This document shows, in pieces, positions 26,803 to 35,981 of a stretch of DNA of 64,000 nt; within the stretch, counting starts at the first letter, position 1, and each line of letters begins with the position of its first letter. The notes beneath the pieces are model-generated. The model was not told where the DNA came from, did not search any database, and saw nothing but the letters and a program-made list of their open reading frames with translations. The stretch is from NCBI RefSeq assembly GCF_900115345.1, contig NZ_FOWC01000021.1, positions 62,001 through 126,000 of the forward strand. Direction: 5' to 3'. A program made the translations under genes and the position numbers. This stretch comes from Amycolatopsis rubida. Lineage in GTDB: Bacteria > Actinomycetota > Actinomycetes > Mycobacteriales > Pseudonocardiaceae.

Positions 26803-27387
26803 TCAGCCGTCGAGCGTGCCGTACACGATGATGTTGTCGAGATAGCTCTTCTTTTCGGCGTCGAACGCGCCGCCGCACGTGATCAGCCGGATCTGCGAAT
26901 CGGTCGTGTTGCCGTACACGGCTTCGGTGGGGAACGTCTTCTTCGCGATCTGGTCCACCTTGGTCACCGTGAACGAGGCCTTCGACCCGTCCTTGCGGCC
27001 GATGACGACCTTGTCGCCCTTCTTCATCTCGTGCAGCCGCCAGAAAATGCCCTTCTGGTGGTTGCCGTCGATGTGACCGAGGACGACCGCCGGTCCGACC
27101 TGGCCCGGTTTGGGTCCGAAGTGGTACCAGCCCGCCTGCAGCGGCTGGTCCACCGGCGGCACCTGGACGGTCTTGTCGTCGTTGAGGCCGAGCGGCACCA
27201 GCGACGAATGCGCGTCGATGCTGGGAACGTCGAGCGAGACCGGGTCCGCGACCTGCTGCGCGGCCGCCGCGGAACTCGCCGGGGCCGCGGCGGGCGGGGC
27301 CTGATCCGCCGAACCGCAGCCCAGCAGGGCGAAGTTCGCGACGAAAGCCAGCAGCAGCGCGAAAAGCCCGAACCGGGAACGCGTCAC
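26803..27387 (-). CDS. Class F-like sortase, possible lipoprotein
   Basis: 194 residues from GTG 27387. The N-terminal hydrophobic segment ends FALLGCGSADQ, a credible lipobox, so it may be lipid-anchored. The sortase barrel begins SLDVPSIDAHSSLVPLG. The catalytic His is in AVVLGHIDG and the Cys in RLITCGGAFD. In the last strand (YLDNIIVYG) I see no obvious catalytic Arg. It overlaps the upstream secreted protein gene by 4 bp (GTGA), an intimate pairing that points to that protein as substrate or partner. Confidence 0.82.
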   Translation of the reverse strand: MTRSRFGLFALLLAFVANFALLGCGSADQAPPAAAPASSAAAAQQVADPVSLDVPSIDAHSSLVPLGLNDDKTVQVPPVDQPLQAGWYHFGPKPGQVGPAVVLGHIDGNHQKGIFWRLHEMKKGDKVVIGRKDGSKASFTVTKVDQIAKKTFPTEAVYGNTTDSQIRLITCGGAFDAEKKSYLDNIIVYGTLDG

Positions 27388-28208
27388 CGGGCGGTCACCG
27401 CGGCCAGCGTGCCGTCGCCGGTCTCCGGCGCGCCGACCGGAACGACCGTGACCTGGCCGGGGCCTTCGGCGGGCGGGGCGGGCTTGCTCGGCTGGGTGGT
27501 CGGCGGAGTGGTGGGCGGGGTGGTCGGGTTGCCCGCGACCTTGGCGCAGGTGGCCGAGGCGAGGACGATGTCGCCCTTGCCGAGCGCGCCGGTGACGGCG
27601 CCGCCGAGCAGCTTGATGTGCAGCGCGTTGACGGTGAGGCTGCCGTCGGAGTGCTTGATCTGCTCGTTGACGATCACCTGGAGCACGCCGTCGATGCCGA
27701 GCTTCTGGTTCGGCTTGGTCGACACCGGGAGCTTGCCGATCTTGCCGAGGTCGAGGCCGGCCAGCTCGGACGAGGCGGTGATGCCGTCCGGGGTGGACTT
27801 GCACTCGGAACTGATCACGCGGGCCTTGGGGGTGGAGCCGGCGAGCGGGGCGAGCACCGGGAGCGCGGCGTCGACGATCGAAGCCTTCGCCTCGACCGGG
27901 CCCTTGCTGCCGTCCTGCTTCGCCGAGCTGCTGACCGCCTTGGCCGTGACCAGGCCCTTCAGCGGCACGTTCACCACCTGCGCGGACTCCGGGCCCTCGG
28001 TCGAGGAGGGCGCGATCTTGCCGGTGTCGACGGTGATTCCCTTGTCGCCGAGCACGCCGGGCAGCAGCGAGACCGAGGCGGACGCGCCGTAGGCCGAGCC
28101 GGCGGGCGCCTCGGCGGCGAGCGCCGACGGGGCGACGGCGGTGGCGAGCAAAGCCAGCGCGGGAACAGCGACCGCGACGGTCCGTCCGCGCAGCAGGGCA
28201 GAACGCAT
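27384..28208 (-). CDS. Secreted choice-of-anchor-type protein, probable sortase partner
   Basis: 274 residues. A signal peptide spans about 1-31 (ending ALAAEAP). The body is beta-rich with alternating polar and hydrophobic strands and only two Cys, as in actinobacterial choice-of-anchor proteins. A Pro/Thr-rich linker (TTPPTTPPTTQPSKPAPP) follows, then VPVGAPETGDGTLAAVTAR at the end. APETG resembles a sorting pentapeptide, but no C-terminal TM follows it. Immediately upstream of and overlapping the sortase gene. Probable 5' UTR of about 165 nt. Confidence 0.7.
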   Translation of the reverse strand: MRSALLRGRTVAVAVPALALLATAVAPSALAAEAPAGSAYGASASVSLLPGVLGDKGITVDTGKIAPSSTEGPESAQVVNVPLKGLVTAKAVSSSAKQDGSKGPVEAKASIVDAALPVLAPLAGSTPKARVISSECKSTPDGITASSELAGLDLGKIGKLPVSTKPNQKLGIDGVLQVIVNEQIKHSDGSLTVNALHIKLLGGAVTGALGKGDIVLASATCAKVAGNPTTPPTTPPTTQPSKPAPPAEGPGQVTVVPVGAPETGDGTLAAVTAR

Positions 28209-28716: not shown

Positions 28717-28775
28717 ACCGGCCGGACCGTGTTTCGTCCGGCAGTCCTGCCGCGACGAAACACGGTCCGGCCGGT
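28717..28775 (-). terminator. Very long hairpin ending the TIR/NTPase operon
   Basis: Arms 28717-28738 and 28754-28775 are 22 bp and perfectly complementary; inside the loop a further 5-bp stem CGGCA/TGCCG forms. It lies 25 bp past the last stop of the leftward operon. Confidence 0.75.
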
Positions 28776-28800: not shown

Positions 28801-30294
28801 TCACTCCTGGTCCGCGCCCGAGCTCCCGGGGTGGGCGACGCGGTCGGTACGCTCCCCCGGCGCACCAGGATCCGGCCAGAGCAAAGCCGGTTCAGCGCCG
28901 TCTTGCGGCGAGCCGGAGCCCGACCTCCCGTCCGAGTTGTCTTGCTCTGCATCCGGAGCCCCTGGCTGTGTGCCGTCGCCCCCGCGGTCCGAAACCGGAT
29001 CAGGCGTCTCGTCCCGGCCGAACTCCGCCTTGTCGTCAGGAGCTCGGACAGCCATGACGTCGCGAGGCGACCCAGCATCAGCGTCGGCACCTTCTTCGTC
29101 CCGGTGAAACCATGCCCGCGCAGCCACATTGTCTTGAGCCTGCTGAGCGTGATCGTCGTACGCCGGGGAAGGCGAGCGGCCTTGGGCCGATCCGTCCTGG
29201 GGCAGCTCCTCCTGAACCGGTCCGGACGGCGACGGGTCCGGGTCCAACGCGCCAAAGGCCTCACGGACCTGATCGGCCAGGTCTGGTTTGCCCGCCCCGG
29301 CGAAAGAGCTGGCCAGCCGTTCAGCCAGCAGATCCCGTTCGGGTGCGTCTGCGTCCAGGCCAATCCCGTTCATCAGAGCTTCGACAAGATCGACCACGCT
29401 GTCCCGTGGTGATGGGTCGGAGACCGCTGGCGTGCGCTCGGACGCGGACACGTCCTCCGGAAACGCCATCTGCCCATAGCCCAGTTCCCGACCCGTCGCC
29501 GCCCGCACGTTGTTGGCGGCCGCCGTCAGCTCGGCGAGAGTGTTGATGTCCTTCACTACATTCGCCACGTCGTTGTTCTGCTTCACCAGCCACCAGACGA
29601 CCGCACTGCCGGTGTCGCTGAGAACGTCTTCTCCGAGATAACGCCGCCGGTCTTCCTCATGCTTGCGCTCGTACTCCCACACCAGCGCGTCTTTGCGCGT
29701 CTTCGCGAACAGCTCAAGCCGCTCGCGGTCGGCAGTCTCAAGATCGAGCCGCACGTCGGCAGCCGAAACCTCGACGAATCCGGATTTGTCCGGCCCTACC
29801 TTGCCTAACACGCTGTTCAGCCGATGCCGGACCTGTTCGTGGTCAAGAGGCAGTTCACCCGCCGTGATCGCCTTCGCTCGTTCCACGACTTCGTTGATCG
29901 CTACCGCACCCGGACTCGCGTGCACCGGCCCGCGCACCTCCGGGCATAACCGCCACCACACCGTCGCCGAGAACAGGAACCGGTAGTCCTCGCGCCTGCT
30001 CGGCAACGCAGTCGCGGTCACCTCCGTCCGCTCGAACCGAACCGGGGCTGGTTCCGGCACCGGCTCCGGCGCGGGCGGTTGCACAGCAGCCAGGTGCGCC
30101 GTCATGCGCCGGTCGACCTCGGACTCGTAGGCGATCCGGGCGCTGATCCGCTTGTGGACAGCTACTGGAATGATCACCAGCGGAAGCATGAGCATAAGCC
30201 ACAGCAGGGAGTCCAGTCCGATCGTGAGACCGATCGGAACACCGGCGCAGACAAGCAGTGCGATAGAGAGCGTGGCCTTGTCCGATGAAGTCAT
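28801..30294 (-). CDS. Membrane protein with long acidic tail, last gene of the TIR operon
   Basis: 497 residues. Two TM helices sit near the N-terminus (about 8-25 and 28-46: TLSIALLVCAGVPIGLTIGL, LLWLMLMLPLVIIPVAV). An alpha/beta region follows (about 85-260) with a helical stretch RKHEEDRRRYLGEDV, then a low-complexity acidic, Gly/Pro/Ser-rich tail (about 340-497). No family recognised. Its ATG overlaps the TGA of the NTPase-like gene by 4 bp, so it is translationally coupled. It could be the membrane-directed component of the system. Low-complexity tails of this kind are common in actinobacterial membrane proteins, so the role is uncertain. Confidence 0.75.
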   Translation of the reverse strand: MTSSDKATLSIALLVCAGVPIGLTIGLDSLLWLMLMLPLVIIPVAVHKRISARIAYESEVDRRMTAHLAAVQPPAPEPVPEPAPVRFERTEVTATALPSRREDYRFLFSATVWWRLCPEVRGPVHASPGAVAINEVVERAKAITAGELPLDHEQVRHRLNSVLGKVGPDKSGFVEVSAADVRLDLETADRERLELFAKTRKDALVWEYERKHEEDRRRYLGEDVLSDTGSAVVWWLVKQNNDVANVVKDINTLAELTAAANNVRAATGRELGYGQMAFPEDVSASERTPAVSDPSPRDSVVDLVEALMNGIGLDADAPERDLLAERLASSFAGAGKPDLADQVREAFGALDPDPSPSGPVQEELPQDGSAQGRSPSPAYDDHAQQAQDNVAARAWFHRDEEGADADAGSPRDVMAVRAPDDKAEFGRDETPDPVSDRGGDGTQPGAPDAEQDNSDGRSGSGSPQDGAEPALLWPDPGAPGERTDRVAHPGSSGADQE

Positions 30295-32276
30295 GATCGG
30301 CCTTTCTTCTCGCGGAGCGTGGTGGTATCCGAATCGACCACGCCCTGCGCTTCGTTGATCAGCTGGATGACAAGGAGCGCGAAGCGGGCACGTGACACGC
30401 GATCACCGCTCCGCGCCCAATCTCTGGCAGTCACATAGACGGTGGCGAGAGTCCGGGGATCGCCGCCCGCTCCGGCGAGCACCTCGCGAACGAGCAAGGC
30501 CGCGTCCGGAGCGTCCGCACCGGCGCATTCGCTCAGCCAGGTCCGCAGATGCTCCTGCCATTGCGGCGCGGGCAGGTTCGTCATGAGCGCGCGCCAGACC
30601 GCCTCGATGCACCTGCGCACAGTGGGATCGGACCCGAAGCGACGGCCTCGGACGTCAGTGCTCAGCACCAGCTTCGGACTGAGCACTCGCAGCGCCAGCT
30701 CTGTCTCGGATCGCCCCCGATCCGGCCGGGGAGGATGCTGCCGCAACCGCCAGGCGAGACGGCGGTAGAGCCGGAGATCGCTCGCGACCAGTTGGAGCAG
30801 CCGCTCCAGCGCATAACTGTCGACGCGGTCTCGATTTCGCTTGACCAAGTGGTTGAGCCTGGTGAGCGCCTCTTCCGGGTACTCCGCCGCCATCTCCGCC
30901 GCGCACAGATCGGCCAGCACCGCGGCAAACTGGCCCGGCAAGTCGCGCGCCCGCGCCCAAGTGTAGAACTGCTGCCGGAAGAACCGGCCGTGCCGCGAAT
31001 GTGCCAGCCCCCTCGACAGGACGGTCTGCACCTGATCTGGCCAATCCCGCGCCGGCGGCCAGTTCCTGACCAGCTGCGCCAGATCGTCTTGCAGATCTGC
31101 ATCAAGCAGTTGAATCGCCATCCGGTCAGCCAGCCGAAGCCGGGACGACCTGCTCAGCTCCTCCATGCCCACGAGGCTGGCGCTCCAGTCGTGGAGAACA
31201 TTGTGCAATCGCGGGTACTCCCGCCAGAAGTAGGCGGCGACCGCGCCGCCGTATCCAGCTTCCCGGAACCGGATCCCGCCATGCTCGTCCGCGGGCACCG
31301 CGGTGACCTCGCCCAGGTAGCTGGACAGCGAGATACGTTCCAGCAACGGAACCTCGCTCTCCGGATGCTCCACCTGCGTCAGCAGCTTGGCCGCAGCCGC
31401 GAAGACCACCCTGCGATGCTCGCCCTCCAGCATCGCCAAGGCCAGAGCGAGCGCGCGGACCACGCCGTCCTTCTTGCCGTCGAGAAGCTTCCGCGCTTCT
31501 TCAGTCCGGTCGGCAACCGCCTGCTGTGCTTCCCTGAGCAGATCCAGCAGCCGTTGGCCGCCTCGCGCCGACGACCGCGCCCTCTCGGCAAGACGTGCCA
31601 GATTGTTCATACTCGACGAAACCAACGAAGCGCAGAAGGCCTGGTACTCCGCCGGATCGAGGTCGCCGGACAGCCCGTCCGCAGCGAGATGCCGCCGCAG
31701 CACCACCGCCGGGTCCGGCCGCCCCAGCGGAACCAGGAACTGGCGGCTCTCGTCGAATTCGAACTGCTCCTCCACCGCCCGATCGACGATAATCACCAAT
31801 CTGGTCGATCTGGCTTTCGTGTGCGCCCGGAGATAGAGCGCCTTCTCCTTGAGCTTCGCGTAGTACTCGCTCTCGACCGAGGAAAGGTCAAGGAGAAGCA
31901 GGTCTCCGTCGGCAACGCTGTCCGGGTCGAACGCGTCTTCCTCCACTTCAGTCGGCAAGACCCGGAAAAGATGACTGGAATCAGCGTAAGTGCGCAGGAG
32001 CATCTTCGCCGCGGTCCGCATCCCGGCCCCGGCCGGCCCGGAAATGAGGACCAGCCGGCACTTCTCCAGCTTGTGCTGAGCCTGCGGAAAGCCTTCCGGT
32101 GGCTCGAACCTTCGATAAAGCCAGCCCAGATCCGACTCGTGGAGCAGGCCGAACGGCCGGCGCCGGTTGTGCGGGCCGGGGGTGTCGATGTTGTTGATCT
32201 GGGTGTATTGAGTGACCGGTGAACCCACGCCTGGCCGGGGAAGCGGGCCGGGCGACTCGCGCTCGCCCGCAGTCAA
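30291..32276 (-). CDS. Large NTPase-like (STAND-like?) protein with degenerate P-loop
   Basis: 661 residues from TTG 32276, whose TTGA overlaps the TIR stop; GTG 32228 is the alternative. After a flexible N-terminus (TQYTQINNID) comes CRLVLISGPAGAGMRTAAK, shaped like a Walker A loop but with Met-Arg where Lys-Thr/Ser is expected. A Walker B-like DGDLLLLDLSS follows about 70 residues on. The remaining 400 residues are helical and rich in Leu, Arg and Trp, as in the sensor arrays of STAND ATPases, without a clear TPR or WD pattern. It is sandwiched between the TIR and membrane genes with 4-bp overlaps on both sides, so the three products probably form one system. Confidence 0.7.
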   Translation of the reverse strand: MTAGERESPGPLPRPGVGSPVTQYTQINNIDTPGPHNRRRPFGLLHESDLGWLYRRFEPPEGFPQAQHKLEKCRLVLISGPAGAGMRTAAKMLLRTYADSSHLFRVLPTEVEEDAFDPDSVADGDLLLLDLSSVESEYYAKLKEKALYLRAHTKARSTRLVIIVDRAVEEQFEFDESRQFLVPLGRPDPAVVLRRHLAADGLSGDLDPAEYQAFCASLVSSSMNNLARLAERARSSARGGQRLLDLLREAQQAVADRTEEARKLLDGKKDGVVRALALALAMLEGEHRRVVFAAAAKLLTQVEHPESEVPLLERISLSSYLGEVTAVPADEHGGIRFREAGYGGAVAAYFWREYPRLHNVLHDWSASLVGMEELSRSSRLRLADRMAIQLLDADLQDDLAQLVRNWPPARDWPDQVQTVLSRGLAHSRHGRFFRQQFYTWARARDLPGQFAAVLADLCAAEMAAEYPEEALTRLNHLVKRNRDRVDSYALERLLQLVASDLRLYRRLAWRLRQHPPRPDRGRSETELALRVLSPKLVLSTDVRGRRFGSDPTVRRCIEAVWRALMTNLPAPQWQEHLRTWLSECAGADAPDAALLVREVLAGAGGDPRTLATVYVTARDWARSGDRVSRARFALLVIQLINEAQGVVDSDTTTLREKKGRS

Positions 32277-33001
32277 CGCCGCCCCTCGCCCTCCGCCGAG
32301 CCGTCGTCTTCCCTGACGTTGATGGTGCGTGCGTTGTTGAACGTGCCTGTCCCCGCATGGGTCGGACCATTGAACTGCGAACCGCCGACCACGTCGCCGT
32401 TGTACTGGTTTCCCGGGCCGCTGATGATCGTCCCGATCGACGGGTCGCGCCAAACCCCGCCTACGCCTCCGCCATGGACTTCGTTCCGCGTGGCGGATTC
32501 GCCTGTCTGCTTCGCGGGCTCAGTAAGATCTTTCAGCTCAGGGACGAAATCGAGCACATCCTGAGCGATCCGGTTCAGCAGGGTGTCAGGATCCCGGTGG
32601 TGGTAAACCTGGTACTGCAGATCCGCCAGCCGCTTGAGCCGCTGAGGCAACTCTTTGACCGGCAGCGGCGACTTCGCACGTTCGTCGACCACAGGGATCA
32701 CCCGCACCCCGTGGTCGAATGCCATCACCAGCTCGCGGTGAATCCAGTCTTCCGGATTGTCGATCTTGCGCCGTCCGGTCCCGTCGGCGGCGGTCAGCCA
32801 GGTGGGTCCGATGACGCACAACAAGACTTTGCTGCCCCAGACGCCGTTCTCCAGCGCTTTCTGGAACACTGCGCCTGCCTGAATCGACCGATGGTCCTTG
32901 AAGATGTGTTCGTCGCCGAATCGACGGCGCAAGTCCTGGTCGATGATCGTCGCCAACTGCTCGCCGTCCCCGGTCCGGTAATTCAAAAATACTTTAGGCA
33001 T
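32273..33001 (-). CDS. TIR-domain protein with Gly/Asn-rich C-terminal tail
   Basis: 242 residues from ATG 33001; GGAGG lies 10 bp upstream, inside an extension to GTG 33022. The TIR domain (about 1-145) has KVFLNYRTGDGEQLA (box 1), IFKDHRSIQAG, VLLCVIGPTWL and DWIHRELVMAF, where Glu90 occupies the catalytic position of NAD-cleaving TIRs. From about residue 155 the tail is Gly/Asn/Gln-rich: IISGPGNQYNGDVVGG, SQFNGPT and GTGTFNNART. Bacterial TIR proteins of this layout act as NADase effectors triggered by an associated sensor. First partner of the NTPase-like gene, overlapping it by 4 bp. Confidence 0.85.
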   Translation of the reverse strand: MPKVFLNYRTGDGEQLATIIDQDLRRRFGDEHIFKDHRSIQAGAVFQKALENGVWGSKVLLCVIGPTWLTAADGTGRRKIDNPEDWIHRELVMAFDHGVRVIPVVDERAKSPLPVKELPQRLKRLADLQYQVYHHRDPDTLLNRIAQDVLDFVPELKDLTEPAKQTGESATRNEVHGGGVGGVWRDPSIGTIISGPGNQYNGDVVGGSQFNGPTHAGTGTFNNARTINVREDDGSAEGEGRR

Positions 33002-33055
33002 GCTAAATAAACCTCCGTACACAAAGAACTCAACAAACGGGCACGCTCAGTGCGA

Positions 33056-34327
33056 CTAGCCCAGTTGGCCGGTCAGGAGCGGATAGATGTTTCGGACCGA
33101 TTTATGTCCGTGGAAGCGGGCAAGCGTCCGCCGCAACCGACGGAGGTCCTGGGCCACGGTCGCCGAGCCGATCGCCTGCAACGGCCCCTGCAACTCGGCG
33201 GTGATTTCACAGGCTCTTTCGACCTCGTTCTGCATCGCGTACGCGAGTGCCCTTCGGACGCCGTAGCGGGCTCTCGTCCGCAGCGCATGCTCCGGCACCG
33301 TTTGGAGTTGCCGGTCGAGCACTGCGGCGGCTTCCCGAGGGCGGCCGAGATCGAGCAAACACCACCCTGCCGCCATGGCCACCGGGTCCTCGAGGTGCAT
33401 GGCGCCCAGCACCGGCAGGGCGGAATCGCCGCGGTCGTCCGGTATCACCAGCAGCGAACGCGCGCGGTCGAGTACTCGCATGCACGATTCGTAGTCACCG
33501 GCCAGCGCGTGCCCTTGCGCCTCCAGCTGTGCGGCCAGGCCTTGGATTCGCGCCGGCGTCGGCCCTGCCTGTGCCTCGCGGCTCAGTGCGATCGTCTTCC
33601 CGGCATCCTCCTGGTACAGGGCGACGACTGCCTTCCGGACGAGCGCGTAGCGGGCCAGATGACGGTCTCCTCCGGATTCTGCCATGCGCACTGCCTGATC
33701 TGTCCACCACAGCGATGCCCGCTCGTCCCCGCTTTCCTGCGCCATCCAGCCCACGTACTCCGCGGAGCGGGAAGCGAGCAGGAAAAGCTCCGAGTGGTCG
33801 CTGCCGACCGCCTGCCTGGCCAGCTCGCGAAGGGTGTGCGTCTGCGCGATGACGGTGGGGATGACCGCGCCGGGGCTCGCGACCTGCCCCAGAGCCCGCA
33901 TTTGGTCGAACTGCAGGCGAAACACGGACAACGCCGTTCCCCCGGCCGAACGCGCCAAAGCGGGCGCCCCCACGCTGAACCCCAGCCCGGCACCCAGCAC
34001 GATCGCCTCGCGTCTCCCCATCGGACGGAACCAGCTGCCGTCCCTGCCGTCGAGATTCACCATCCAGGCCTCTCCGTCGTCAGCCTCGTCGGCCCGTTCG
34101 GTCCGGTGCTCCCCGGTTTTGACCAAGGAAGCAAGCCGGCCTCCTGCCCGCAATTCGACATCGCACCGGCGCGCGAGGTCGGGATGCGCTCGTTTCAGCC
34201 CGTTCTCGATTTTGCTCAGATAGCCCTTGCTGTAGTGCACCACGACCGCAAGATCTGCGAGCGATACTCCAGCTCCGGTGCGCCACCGCCGAAGCTCGGC
34301 ACCGAACTGTGCGCGGCTATCCGCCAC
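33056..34327 (-). CDS. XRE-family regulator with TPR-like C-terminal domain
   Basis: 423 residues from GTG 34327, with GGGAGGGA about 6 bp upstream. The HTH (about 5-60) reads AELRRWRTGAGVSLADLAVV and HYSKGYLSKIENGLKRA. The rest (about 110-420) is helical with repeated A/L pairs typical of TPR-like arrays in actinobacterial XRE regulators (ALARYALVRKAVVALYQ-type helices). These bind a ligand or peptide and control linked genes. It lies 54 bp ahead of the TIR gene on the same strand, so it probably heads the operon and regulates it. Not divergent to any DUF397 partner. Confidence 0.82.
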   Translation of the reverse strand: MADSRAQFGAELRRWRTGAGVSLADLAVVVHYSKGYLSKIENGLKRAHPDLARRCDVELRAGGRLASLVKTGEHRTERADEADDGEAWMVNLDGRDGSWFRPMGRREAIVLGAGLGFSVGAPALARSAGGTALSVFRLQFDQMRALGQVASPGAVIPTVIAQTHTLRELARQAVGSDHSELFLLASRSAEYVGWMAQESGDERASLWWTDQAVRMAESGGDRHLARYALVRKAVVALYQEDAGKTIALSREAQAGPTPARIQGLAAQLEAQGHALAGDYESCMRVLDRARSLLVIPDDRGDSALPVLGAMHLEDPVAMAAGWCLLDLGRPREAAAVLDRQLQTVPEHALRTRARYGVRRALAYAMQNEVERACEITAELQGPLQAIGSATVAQDLRRLRRTLARFHGHKSVRNIYPLLTGQLG

Positions 34328-34786: not shown

Positions 34787-35887
34787 TTACTCCGCGGCGA
34801 CGGTGACCTGATAGAAGATCCCGGTCCGGTCCGGGAACACGAGCGCGCCCCGTTCGTCGACCATCTTCCACAAAACGTGGCAGACGCCGGTGCCGGTCGG
34901 CGTCACCGGGACGCTCACCTCGACCAGCTGCCCCGGTTCGGCGTCCGGGACCGGGACGCGCGGCGGCGACGGGCACAGCACGGTGGTGCCGCCGGCGACC
35001 TGCAGATAGCGGCTGCGCCACGGCACCGAGCCGGTGTTCTTCAGCCGCCAGATCTTCGTGAACGTCTGGCCGTAGCGGGCTTTCGCGCCGTCCGGGAAGG
35101 TGACGTCGCCGGGCAGGCCGTCGCCGCCGAAGCCGGACGAGTCGCCGGGCAGCGGGTAGTGCGGGACGGCGGCTTCCTTGTCCCGGGAGGACGGAGTGGC
35201 CAGGACCACGACGGCGGCCACCAGTCCGAGAACGACCAGCACCGTCGCGACGACGACGATCGAACCCCAGCGGCGGGTCTTGGCCGCGGCCGGTTCGGGA
35301 GCGGCGGACGGAGCGGCGATCGCCGGATCGGCATCGGGCGACGGTTGCGGCGCGGGAGAAGGTTCGCCCGCCGGAGACGTCCAGTCCCCCGTGCCGGGCC
35401 GCTCGGCGGACGAAGCGCCTTCTGCCGGGTCAGGCCCCCGGCCGGCCGGAGACGTCCAGTCCCCCGCGCCGGGCCGCTCGGCGGACGAAGCGCCTTCTGC
35501 CAGGTCAGGCACCCGGCCGGCCGGAGACGCCGCACCCCACGCCGGATCCGCCGGCTGCCCCTCGGCCGCCTCTTCCCAGCGCGCCAGCCACGCGCGGCGC
35601 ACCGTCTCCTCGTCGCGGCCGAGGCCGGTCACCGCGAGGCTGCGGACGAACTCCCAGGTCGTCGGCCAGGACGGCATGCTGCGGCCGCGCGTGGCAGCCG
35701 AAAGAGCGGACTTCGACGCCGCCGCGCCGAGTTCGGTGCGCATGCGGTCGTAGGACGGGTCGCCCGCTTCCCGCTTCAGGTCCAGCAGAGCGCGAGCGAA
35801 ACGGGCCACCGGGCCCGCGCCGGCGTCGGGCACGATGTGCTTGCGACCCCGGCGGGTCCCGGGCTGCCCGGCCGCGGGCTCGCTCAT
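34787..35887 (-). CDS. HTH / transmembrane / NBR1-type Ig-like protein
   Basis: 366 residues from ATG 35887 with GGAGG 5 bp upstream. The N-terminal region (about 15-100) resembles the degenerate HTH of actinobacterial signalling proteins (FARALLDLKREAGDPSYDR). A Pro/Ser-rich linker with a 25-residue tandem repeat follows (about 122-172), then one TM (about 213-236) and an extracytoplasmic Ig-like domain of the NBR1 type, with FTKIWRLKNTGSVPW and two Cys (CPSPP, CHVLW). Such proteins may link an outside signal to cytoplasmic partners; function unproven. Monocistronic, with its own terminator. Confidence 0.75.
   Translation of the reverse strand: MSEPAAGQPGTRRGRKHIVPDAGAGPVARFARALLDLKREAGDPSYDRMRTELGAAASKSALSAATRGRSMPSWPTTWEFVRSLAVTGLGRDEETVRRAWLARWEEAAEGQPADPAWGAASPAGRVPDLAEGASSAERPGAGDWTSPAGRGPDPAEGASSAERPGTGDWTSPAGEPSPAPQPSPDADPAIAAPSAAPEPAAAKTRRWGSIVVVATVLVVLGLVAAVVVLATPSSRDKEAAVPHYPLPGDSSGFGGDGLPGDVTFPDGAKARYGQTFTKIWRLKNTGSVPWRSRYLQVAGGTTVLCPSPPRVPVPDAEPGQLVEVSVPVTPTGTGVCHVLWKMVDERGALVFPDRTGIFYQVTVAAE
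35373..35522. repeat. Two tandem 75-bp repeats within the Ig-like protein gene
   Basis: Copy 1 is 35373-35447 and copy 2 is 35448-35522, differing at only a few bases, with a 9-base start of a third copy. They encode a 25-residue period (EGASSAERPG core) in the linker before the TM. Near-identity suggests a recent duplication. Confidence 0.85.
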
Positions 35888-35981
35888 GCCACCTCCAATG
35901 ATCGACATCGACCCTTGGAGGTTGCCAGGCGGCCCGGAGCGGTGCAGCCCCGGGCCCGCCAGCCGGTTCAGCGACCGAGGC

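Follow-up and report, generated by a model that had tools for sequence, protein, structure and literature searches.

The question raised by a 64,000 nt stretch of the Amycolatopsis rubida genome (contig NZ_FOWC01000021.1, positions 62,001 to 126,000; hereafter the window) is what is done by four adjacent minus-strand genes that follow one another in the order XRE regulator, TIR protein, NTPase-like protein and membrane protein. An earlier note, made from the letters of the sequence, had described them as one leftward unit that ends at a perfect 22 bp stem, and had proposed an immune or conflict system. The reading reached here, in which belief and doubt are evenly balanced, is that the operon encodes an NLR-like signalosome with interchangeable effectors, a function deduced from sequence comparisons. 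The features of the locus are:

33056–34327, minus strand: XRE helix-turn-helix (HTH)/TPR-like regulator of the NsdA family, with a possible in-frame upstream extension to 34657
32273–33001, minus strand: TIR-domain protein of 242 aa, with a SARM1-like TIR domain (about aa 2–150) and a Gly/Asn-rich tail
32273–32533, minus strand: C-terminal tail of the TIR protein, containing the strict motif IISGPGNQ and, by eye, THAGTGTF as a looser copy
30291–32276, minus strand: nSTAND3-type NTPase-like protein of 661 aa, with a TTG start
28801–30294, minus strand: membrane protein of 497 aa, no family assigned
28717–28775, minus strand: perfect inverted repeat of 22 bp, arms at 28717–28738 and 28754–28775

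The XRE and TIR genes are separated by 54 bp, while the TIR and NTPase-like genes overlap by 4 bp, as do the NTPase-like and membrane protein genes; a GGAGG precedes the ATG of the TIR gene. The inverted repeat starts 25 bp beyond the last stop codon of the operon, has 15 nt between its arms, and its strand folds with z = −8.9, none of 200 shuffles being equally stable. It probably marks the transcription end of the operon, although the minus strand has no run of T after it. The layout given in the earlier note, that is, the coordinates, the strand, the gap, both overlaps and a stem that is perfect over 22 bp, was reproduced throughout.

Conservation of the operon and exchange of its effector gene

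A profile of the NTPase-like protein was searched against 390 genomes of the window's taxonomic family, with only three candidates scored per genome, and gave matches in 157 of them, weak paralogues included. The window and the best 80 other NTPase rows of this search form a set of 81 loci, which were scored with domain-only profiles. In 80 of these, an effector gene lies close upstream of the NTPase gene and on the same strand. It encodes a TIR protein at 42 loci and a cyclase-like protein at 38, with both at none and neither at one (L089). The membrane gene is present at 78 of the 81. Outside the family, 20 stretches were found via the membrane protein, covering 22 of the 33 rows of that search (the row of the window itself, two further rows of its family and the eight with the weakest matches were left out). 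The TIR–NTPase–membrane arrangement is present in 14 of them, and the other six (L182–L187), which carry weaker membrane-protein relatives, have no TIR or NTPase match nearby. Gene order in the 81 and 20 loci rules out coincidental neighbours, and the four genes are a conserved operon-like unit. The earlier note had proposed co-occurrence of the TIR and NTPase-like genes as a check, and the two stand together at 42 of the 81 family loci and 14 of the 20 outside loci.

The regulator is swapped along with the effector. A regulator matching the XRE profile, which may also catch unrelated XRE regulators, occurs within 6 kb at 36 of the 42 TIR loci and at none of the 38 cyclase loci; a CRP-like regulator occurs at all 38 cyclase loci and at none of the 42 TIR loci. 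A PycTM-like gene is found near 16 of the 38 cyclase loci. The regulator and PycTM-like profiles were built from members of these same loci. By Pfam, domains binding cyclic nucleoside monophosphates (cNMP) and CRP HTH domains are present in both of the CRP-like proteins tested, and three of four PycTM-like proteins tested are above the PycTM cut-off, that of L106 falling short of it.

Frequent effector swapping is not borne out by a quickly built tree of 95 NTPases (56 with a TIR effector, 38 with a cyclase-like one and one with neither). It needs three changes of effector label, only one of them forced by well-supported branches, compared with about 30 when the labels are shuffled. The exchange seems to be an old one. 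The NTPase of the window groups with L039 (G117), and then with L040, L038, L041 and L042. The NTPase match in genome G157 (L005/L040) has one internal TGA, possibly a frameshift or a pseudogene.

The effectors, the NTPase-like protein and the membrane protein

The TIR protein of the window matches Pfam TIR_2 (E = 1.7e-8) and aligns by sequence with SARM1 and TIR-1 chains (profile E = 1.7e-15). Its Glu90 is in register with the SARM1 glutamate that we take to be the catalytic residue, and is kept in all 42 aligned members. The TIR protein of the earlier note is thus confirmed together with its SARM1-type glutamate, and it is probably, to judge by these alignments, of the SARM1-like, NAD-destroying type. 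No second copy of its tail was convincingly matched in its own genome (next best E = 0.26).

The alternative effector is a cyclase-like protein, for which cyclase activity is predicted. Pfam, PADLOC and NCBIfam gave no naming match to these proteins, and no matching PDB chain was found. Their motifs follow one another as in class III cyclases. All 38 of 38 keep two metal-type Asp, an RMR...GP stretch and a late Lys, and each of the two Asp is in register with the class III positions in 38/38. Against class III cyclases of related genomes, a 38-row profile aligned in register at E = 0.39, which is not significant, and a Band_7 control did better (0.062). After five divergent relatives were added to the profile, E values of 7.3e-5 and 2.8e-5 were obtained (probability 62–74%; controls 0.39 and 0.23). 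The Asp–Asp spacing is 47, near the 44 of two Pycsar cyclases (PMC11224242). A diverged cyclase-like relative is encoded elsewhere in the window's genome (L196, contig 27, 90752–91309, E = 4.7e-11).

The third protein of the operon and the membrane protein had both been described as matching no nameable family, and the third protein as a candidate STAND-type sensor. The candidacy is upheld, since the protein is above the cut-off of Pfam nSTAND3 (PF20720; 28.6 vs 27.2 bits, E = 1.4e-6), and by the same match it does have a family; the membrane protein has none, with no family found in Pfam, NCBIfam or PADLOC. An nSTAND3 match at E ≤ 0.01 occurs in 50 of 63 aligned NTPases; this 63-row alignment, from which the P-loop counts below are also taken, consists of the window, the 38 NTPases with a cyclase-like effector and 24 of the other 48 with a TIR effector. 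The protein has a short N-terminus, a degenerate Walker A (GPAGAGMRT), a Walker B-like stretch (LLLLDLS) and a long C-terminal region. It also gives a weak match to PADLOC PDC-S73 (0.00055), and a search of PDB by sequence with the family gave no convincing match (best 0.016).

The membrane protein has an N-terminal hydrophobic stretch by hydropathy (19-residue windows starting at aa 6–33), which is also found in 75 of 82 aligned members. The 82-row alignment shows a conserved domain at about aa 97–262 and a variable C-terminal tail. Only scattered weak Pfam matches were found for 21 relatives, and the family has no convincing PDB match by sequence (best 1.1). Membership of SPFH/Band_7 had been suspected from the sequence pattern and was rejected for want of profile support (E = 0.76 and 0.53) in what was a weak test, one of the 30 Band_7 rows (L139) being out of frame.

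Motif sharing between effector tails and NTPase N-termini

Both the TIR and the cyclase-like proteins end in Gly/Asn-rich tails beyond the catalytic domain, and a whole-protein profile of the cyclase-like family caught 12 TIR proteins, essentially via the tail. A motif of the form GPVHTGSGDQxN in the effector tails recurs at the N-terminus of many of the partner NTPases. Tails and N-termini were compared in 87 pairs from 95 NTPase loci (the window, 80 family loci and 14 outside loci), the NTPase starts being chosen mechanically. The pairs left out are L089, which has no effector, and L171, L172, L176, L177, L178, L179 and L180, in which the P-loop pattern failed; several of these seven show the motif by eye.

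The mean score of a tail against the N-terminus of its own NTPase was 64.1, compared with 33.9 (standard deviation 1.15) when partners were permuted, and the own partner ranked first in 25 of the 87 pairs. Composition-preserving shuffles were beaten at p ≤ 0.05 by 71 of the 87 (37/38 cyclase-type and 34/49 TIR-type). When 80 loci were collapsed to 38 (<50% NTPase identity), the values were 64.4 vs 32.9 (standard deviation 1.8), with a maximum of 41.7 in 10,000 permutations, and the own partner came first in 19 of 38 (16/21 cyclase-type, 3/17 TIR-type). In the same 38 loci, tails showed no excess against the C-terminus of the NTPase (20.2 vs 20.4) or of the membrane protein (24.0 vs 25.8).

The remaining 16 pairs fail at p ≤ 0.05. 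One is cyclase-type (L091), and 15 are TIR-type (the window, L038–L043, L045, L048, L050, L061, L074, L083, L105 and L175). No match can be detected in the window's own pair, which ranks 84th of 87 (z = −1.1, p = 0.91), and all five loci of its nearest clade on the tree, L038–L042, also fail; here the coupling motif can be made out in the effectors but not in their NTPases. By type, therefore, the pairing is strong in the cyclase-type loci, weaker in the TIR-type loci and undetected at the window's locus. It could be supposed that the tails are low-complexity linkers with no interaction role, as their Gly/Asn-rich composition and the failing pairs, that of the window among them, would allow. 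This is improbable, given that 71 pairs exceed shuffles of the same composition and that scores follow the locus. The strict motif is present in 27/87 tails and 35/87 N-termini, compared with 0.2 and 0.1 after shuffling, and on both sides in 16/87; it is present in 0/84 membrane proteins.

Pfam NACHT_sigma matches weakly in 2 of the 38 cyclase-like proteins (best 0.0022) and in none of the 42 TIR proteins at 0.01. A second motif, VVQARD, occurs in 25/87 effector tails and in only 3/87 NTPase N-termini, and may have its partner elsewhere in the genome. The tail of the TIR protein at L043:8966-9796 carries several short repeats (GSFVGSPTLGD), unlike the other tails shown.

Proposed mode of action and its alternatives

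Among known systems, BASS are reportedly the NLR-associated amyloid signalling pairs of Dyrka et al. 2020. Adjacent genes that share a motif in this way are known from BASS/NLR pairs, whose effectors include TIR (PMC7889193; also PMC12261475 and PMC9815663). The likeness extends to adjacent or overlapping genes, a motif at the effector C-terminus and the NTPase N-terminus, TIR effectors and occurrence in actinobacteria. The present loci differ in their nSTAND3-type receptor with a degenerate P-loop, the cyclase-like alternative effector, the extra membrane gene, the dedicated regulators and the missing match in the window's own pair. In the EAD/iSTAND systems (Kaur et al. 2020, 2021; PMC7159879 and PMC8195603), a STAND-like core is coupled to TIR or cNMP cyclase domains, either directly or via a shared adaptor that neighbouring genes encode. 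The systems described there centre on MoxR/vWA or GTPase cores with mostly alpha-helical EADs (9/12), whereas in the present loci a short Gly/Asn-rich motif is what is shared, and the partner that stays constant is a membrane protein.

With Pycsar the operons share TIR, cyclase-like and PycTM-like parts and two catalytic-type Asp at a similar spacing (PMC11224242). Unlike Pycsar, TIR and cyclase-like proteins are alternatives (both together at 0/81), and the NTPase-like and membrane proteins are near-constant. That the operon is a variant of Thoeris or Pycsar is highly improbable. Weak, low-scoring ThsB-like matches of the TIR protein (0.0018 in PADLOC, 0.00029 in NCBIfam; 19.8 bits against a cut-off of 220 for NCBIfam ThcB4) and the PycTM-like genes beside 16/38 cyclase-type loci point that way, but PADLOC found no ThsA match among the four operon proteins, no cyclase-like gene is present in the window's unit or within 5–6 kb, the TIR protein of the window has no cNMP-binding domain by Pfam, and at E ≤ 0.01 none of the 38 cyclase-like proteins gives a match in PADLOC or NCBIfam. 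The Avs/nSTAND3 STAND sensors share the nSTAND3-type domain with the present proteins, and the term is used in the Avs5 paper (PMC12931631). The contrast with Avs5 would lie in the separate effector gene and the degenerate P-loop of the present loci. A literature search by title and start of abstract found no description of this gene set. The operon is likely to be a bacterial relative, hitherto undescribed, of the immune signalling complexes of animals and fungi.

From the published BASS pairs and the shared-adaptor principle, it is proposed that the nSTAND3-type protein is a sensor or scaffold that clusters the effector via its tail. It would oligomerise on a cue, and its short N-terminal motif would then nucleate or capture the matching C-terminal tail of the effector encoded upstream, serving as its template. 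Clustering would activate the effector. In the window this would be a SARM1-like TIR destroying NAD+; the sister operons would use a class III cyclase-like enzyme, and the CRP-like regulator and PycTM-like protein linked to it could respond to what it makes. Tethering of the complex to the membrane, or the sensing of stress there, may be the task of the membrane protein, and the upstream regulator may control expression of the operon. Defence or programmed death is the likeliest outcome, since in Pycsar the related TIR and PycTM proteins cause cell death or arrest (PMC11224242).

Several observations weigh against this proposal. As the motif match is undetectable in the window's clade, the coupling step there is drawn from relatives only. 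The Walker-A Lys (position 86) is present in 0/63 aligned NTPases, replaced by Arg in 59, Leu in 3 and Met in 1 (the window), so that a nucleotide switch may not operate. The protein could then be a catalytically dead scaffold with a nucleic acid or a protein as its ligand, which only positions the effector and has no NTP switch, an alternative that concerns this one step, is otherwise compatible with the signalosome, and is a serious one, if short of evenly balanced. Inactive STAND proteins with TIR or cyclase partners have been described (PMC8195603 and PMC7159879; Kaur et al.). However, the loop glycines (G80 and G85 in 63/63, G83 in 62/63) and the Walker B-like Asp (D130, 58/63) are kept, which suggests that nucleotide binding is retained.

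The surroundings and the regulator belong on the same side. Eight neighbouring proteins of the window gave just two weak, unrelated-looking PADLOC matches (0.00047 and 0.00058) and no clear defence gene. The unit is chromosomal and shows no sign of mobility, as none of 50,697 phage records and only 1 of 72,556 plasmid records matched. The regulator scores 140 bits against NCBIfam NsdA_fam_reg (cut-off 75) and matches Pfam HTH_31 (2.7e-11), and the NsdA-type family is known for the control of development and antibiotics. The main rival explanation, which we consider unlikely, is accordingly a developmental or stress-signalling module rather than defence, in which the regulator and membrane protein would make NAD+ or cyclic-nucleotide levels depend on signals from the envelope or from growth. 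Besides the NsdA-family regulator and the chromosomal location with no phage match, the CRP-like regulator of all 38 cyclase loci, with a cNMP-binding domain in the two tested, would fit such a module. The patchy presence argues against it (157/390 family genomes, counting weak paralogues and scoring three candidates per genome), as do the locus-specific pairing of tails, which resembles that of immune receptors and effectors, and PycTM and PycTIR, which parts of the operons resemble and which act via membrane disruption and NAD+ depletion (PMC11224242).

The signalosome reading can be taken further, although only tentatively and with more doubt than belief. A near-constant sensor/membrane chassis would take a plug-in TIR NADase or cyclase through private, locus-specific, prion-like motifs, and the regulator would change together with the effector, the cyclase versions thereby reporting via a cNMP-binding CRP-like factor and a PycTM-like protein. 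If true, the NLR/amyloid, TIR and Pycsar-like worlds would meet in a single system. One bacterial receptor chassis would serve interchangeable NADase and cyclase-like effectors joined to it by co-varying short motifs, the way in which NLR-like receptors choose and switch on their effectors would become testable through tail swaps between loci, and an unannotated actinobacterial membrane protein family would gain a defined role to test. The interpretation in the earlier note is partly supported, with respect to the operon-like unit, the TIR protein, the STAND-type candidate and the co-occurrence in other genomes, and its immune role stays a prediction; the nSTAND3 likeness, the cyclase-like swap and the motif sharing, which is seen in most relatives and not in the window's own pair, were missing from it.

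The genes on either side are on the same strand. The product of the upstream gene (34787–35908, minus strand) has a C-terminal NBR1 Ig-like domain (PF16158, 1.4e-13). Just downstream of the operon, the region 26803–28208 (minus strand) encodes a sortase domain (PF04203, 2.7e-22); the product of 27384–28208, beside the sortase, has no Pfam match, and its N-terminus resembles that of a secreted protein.

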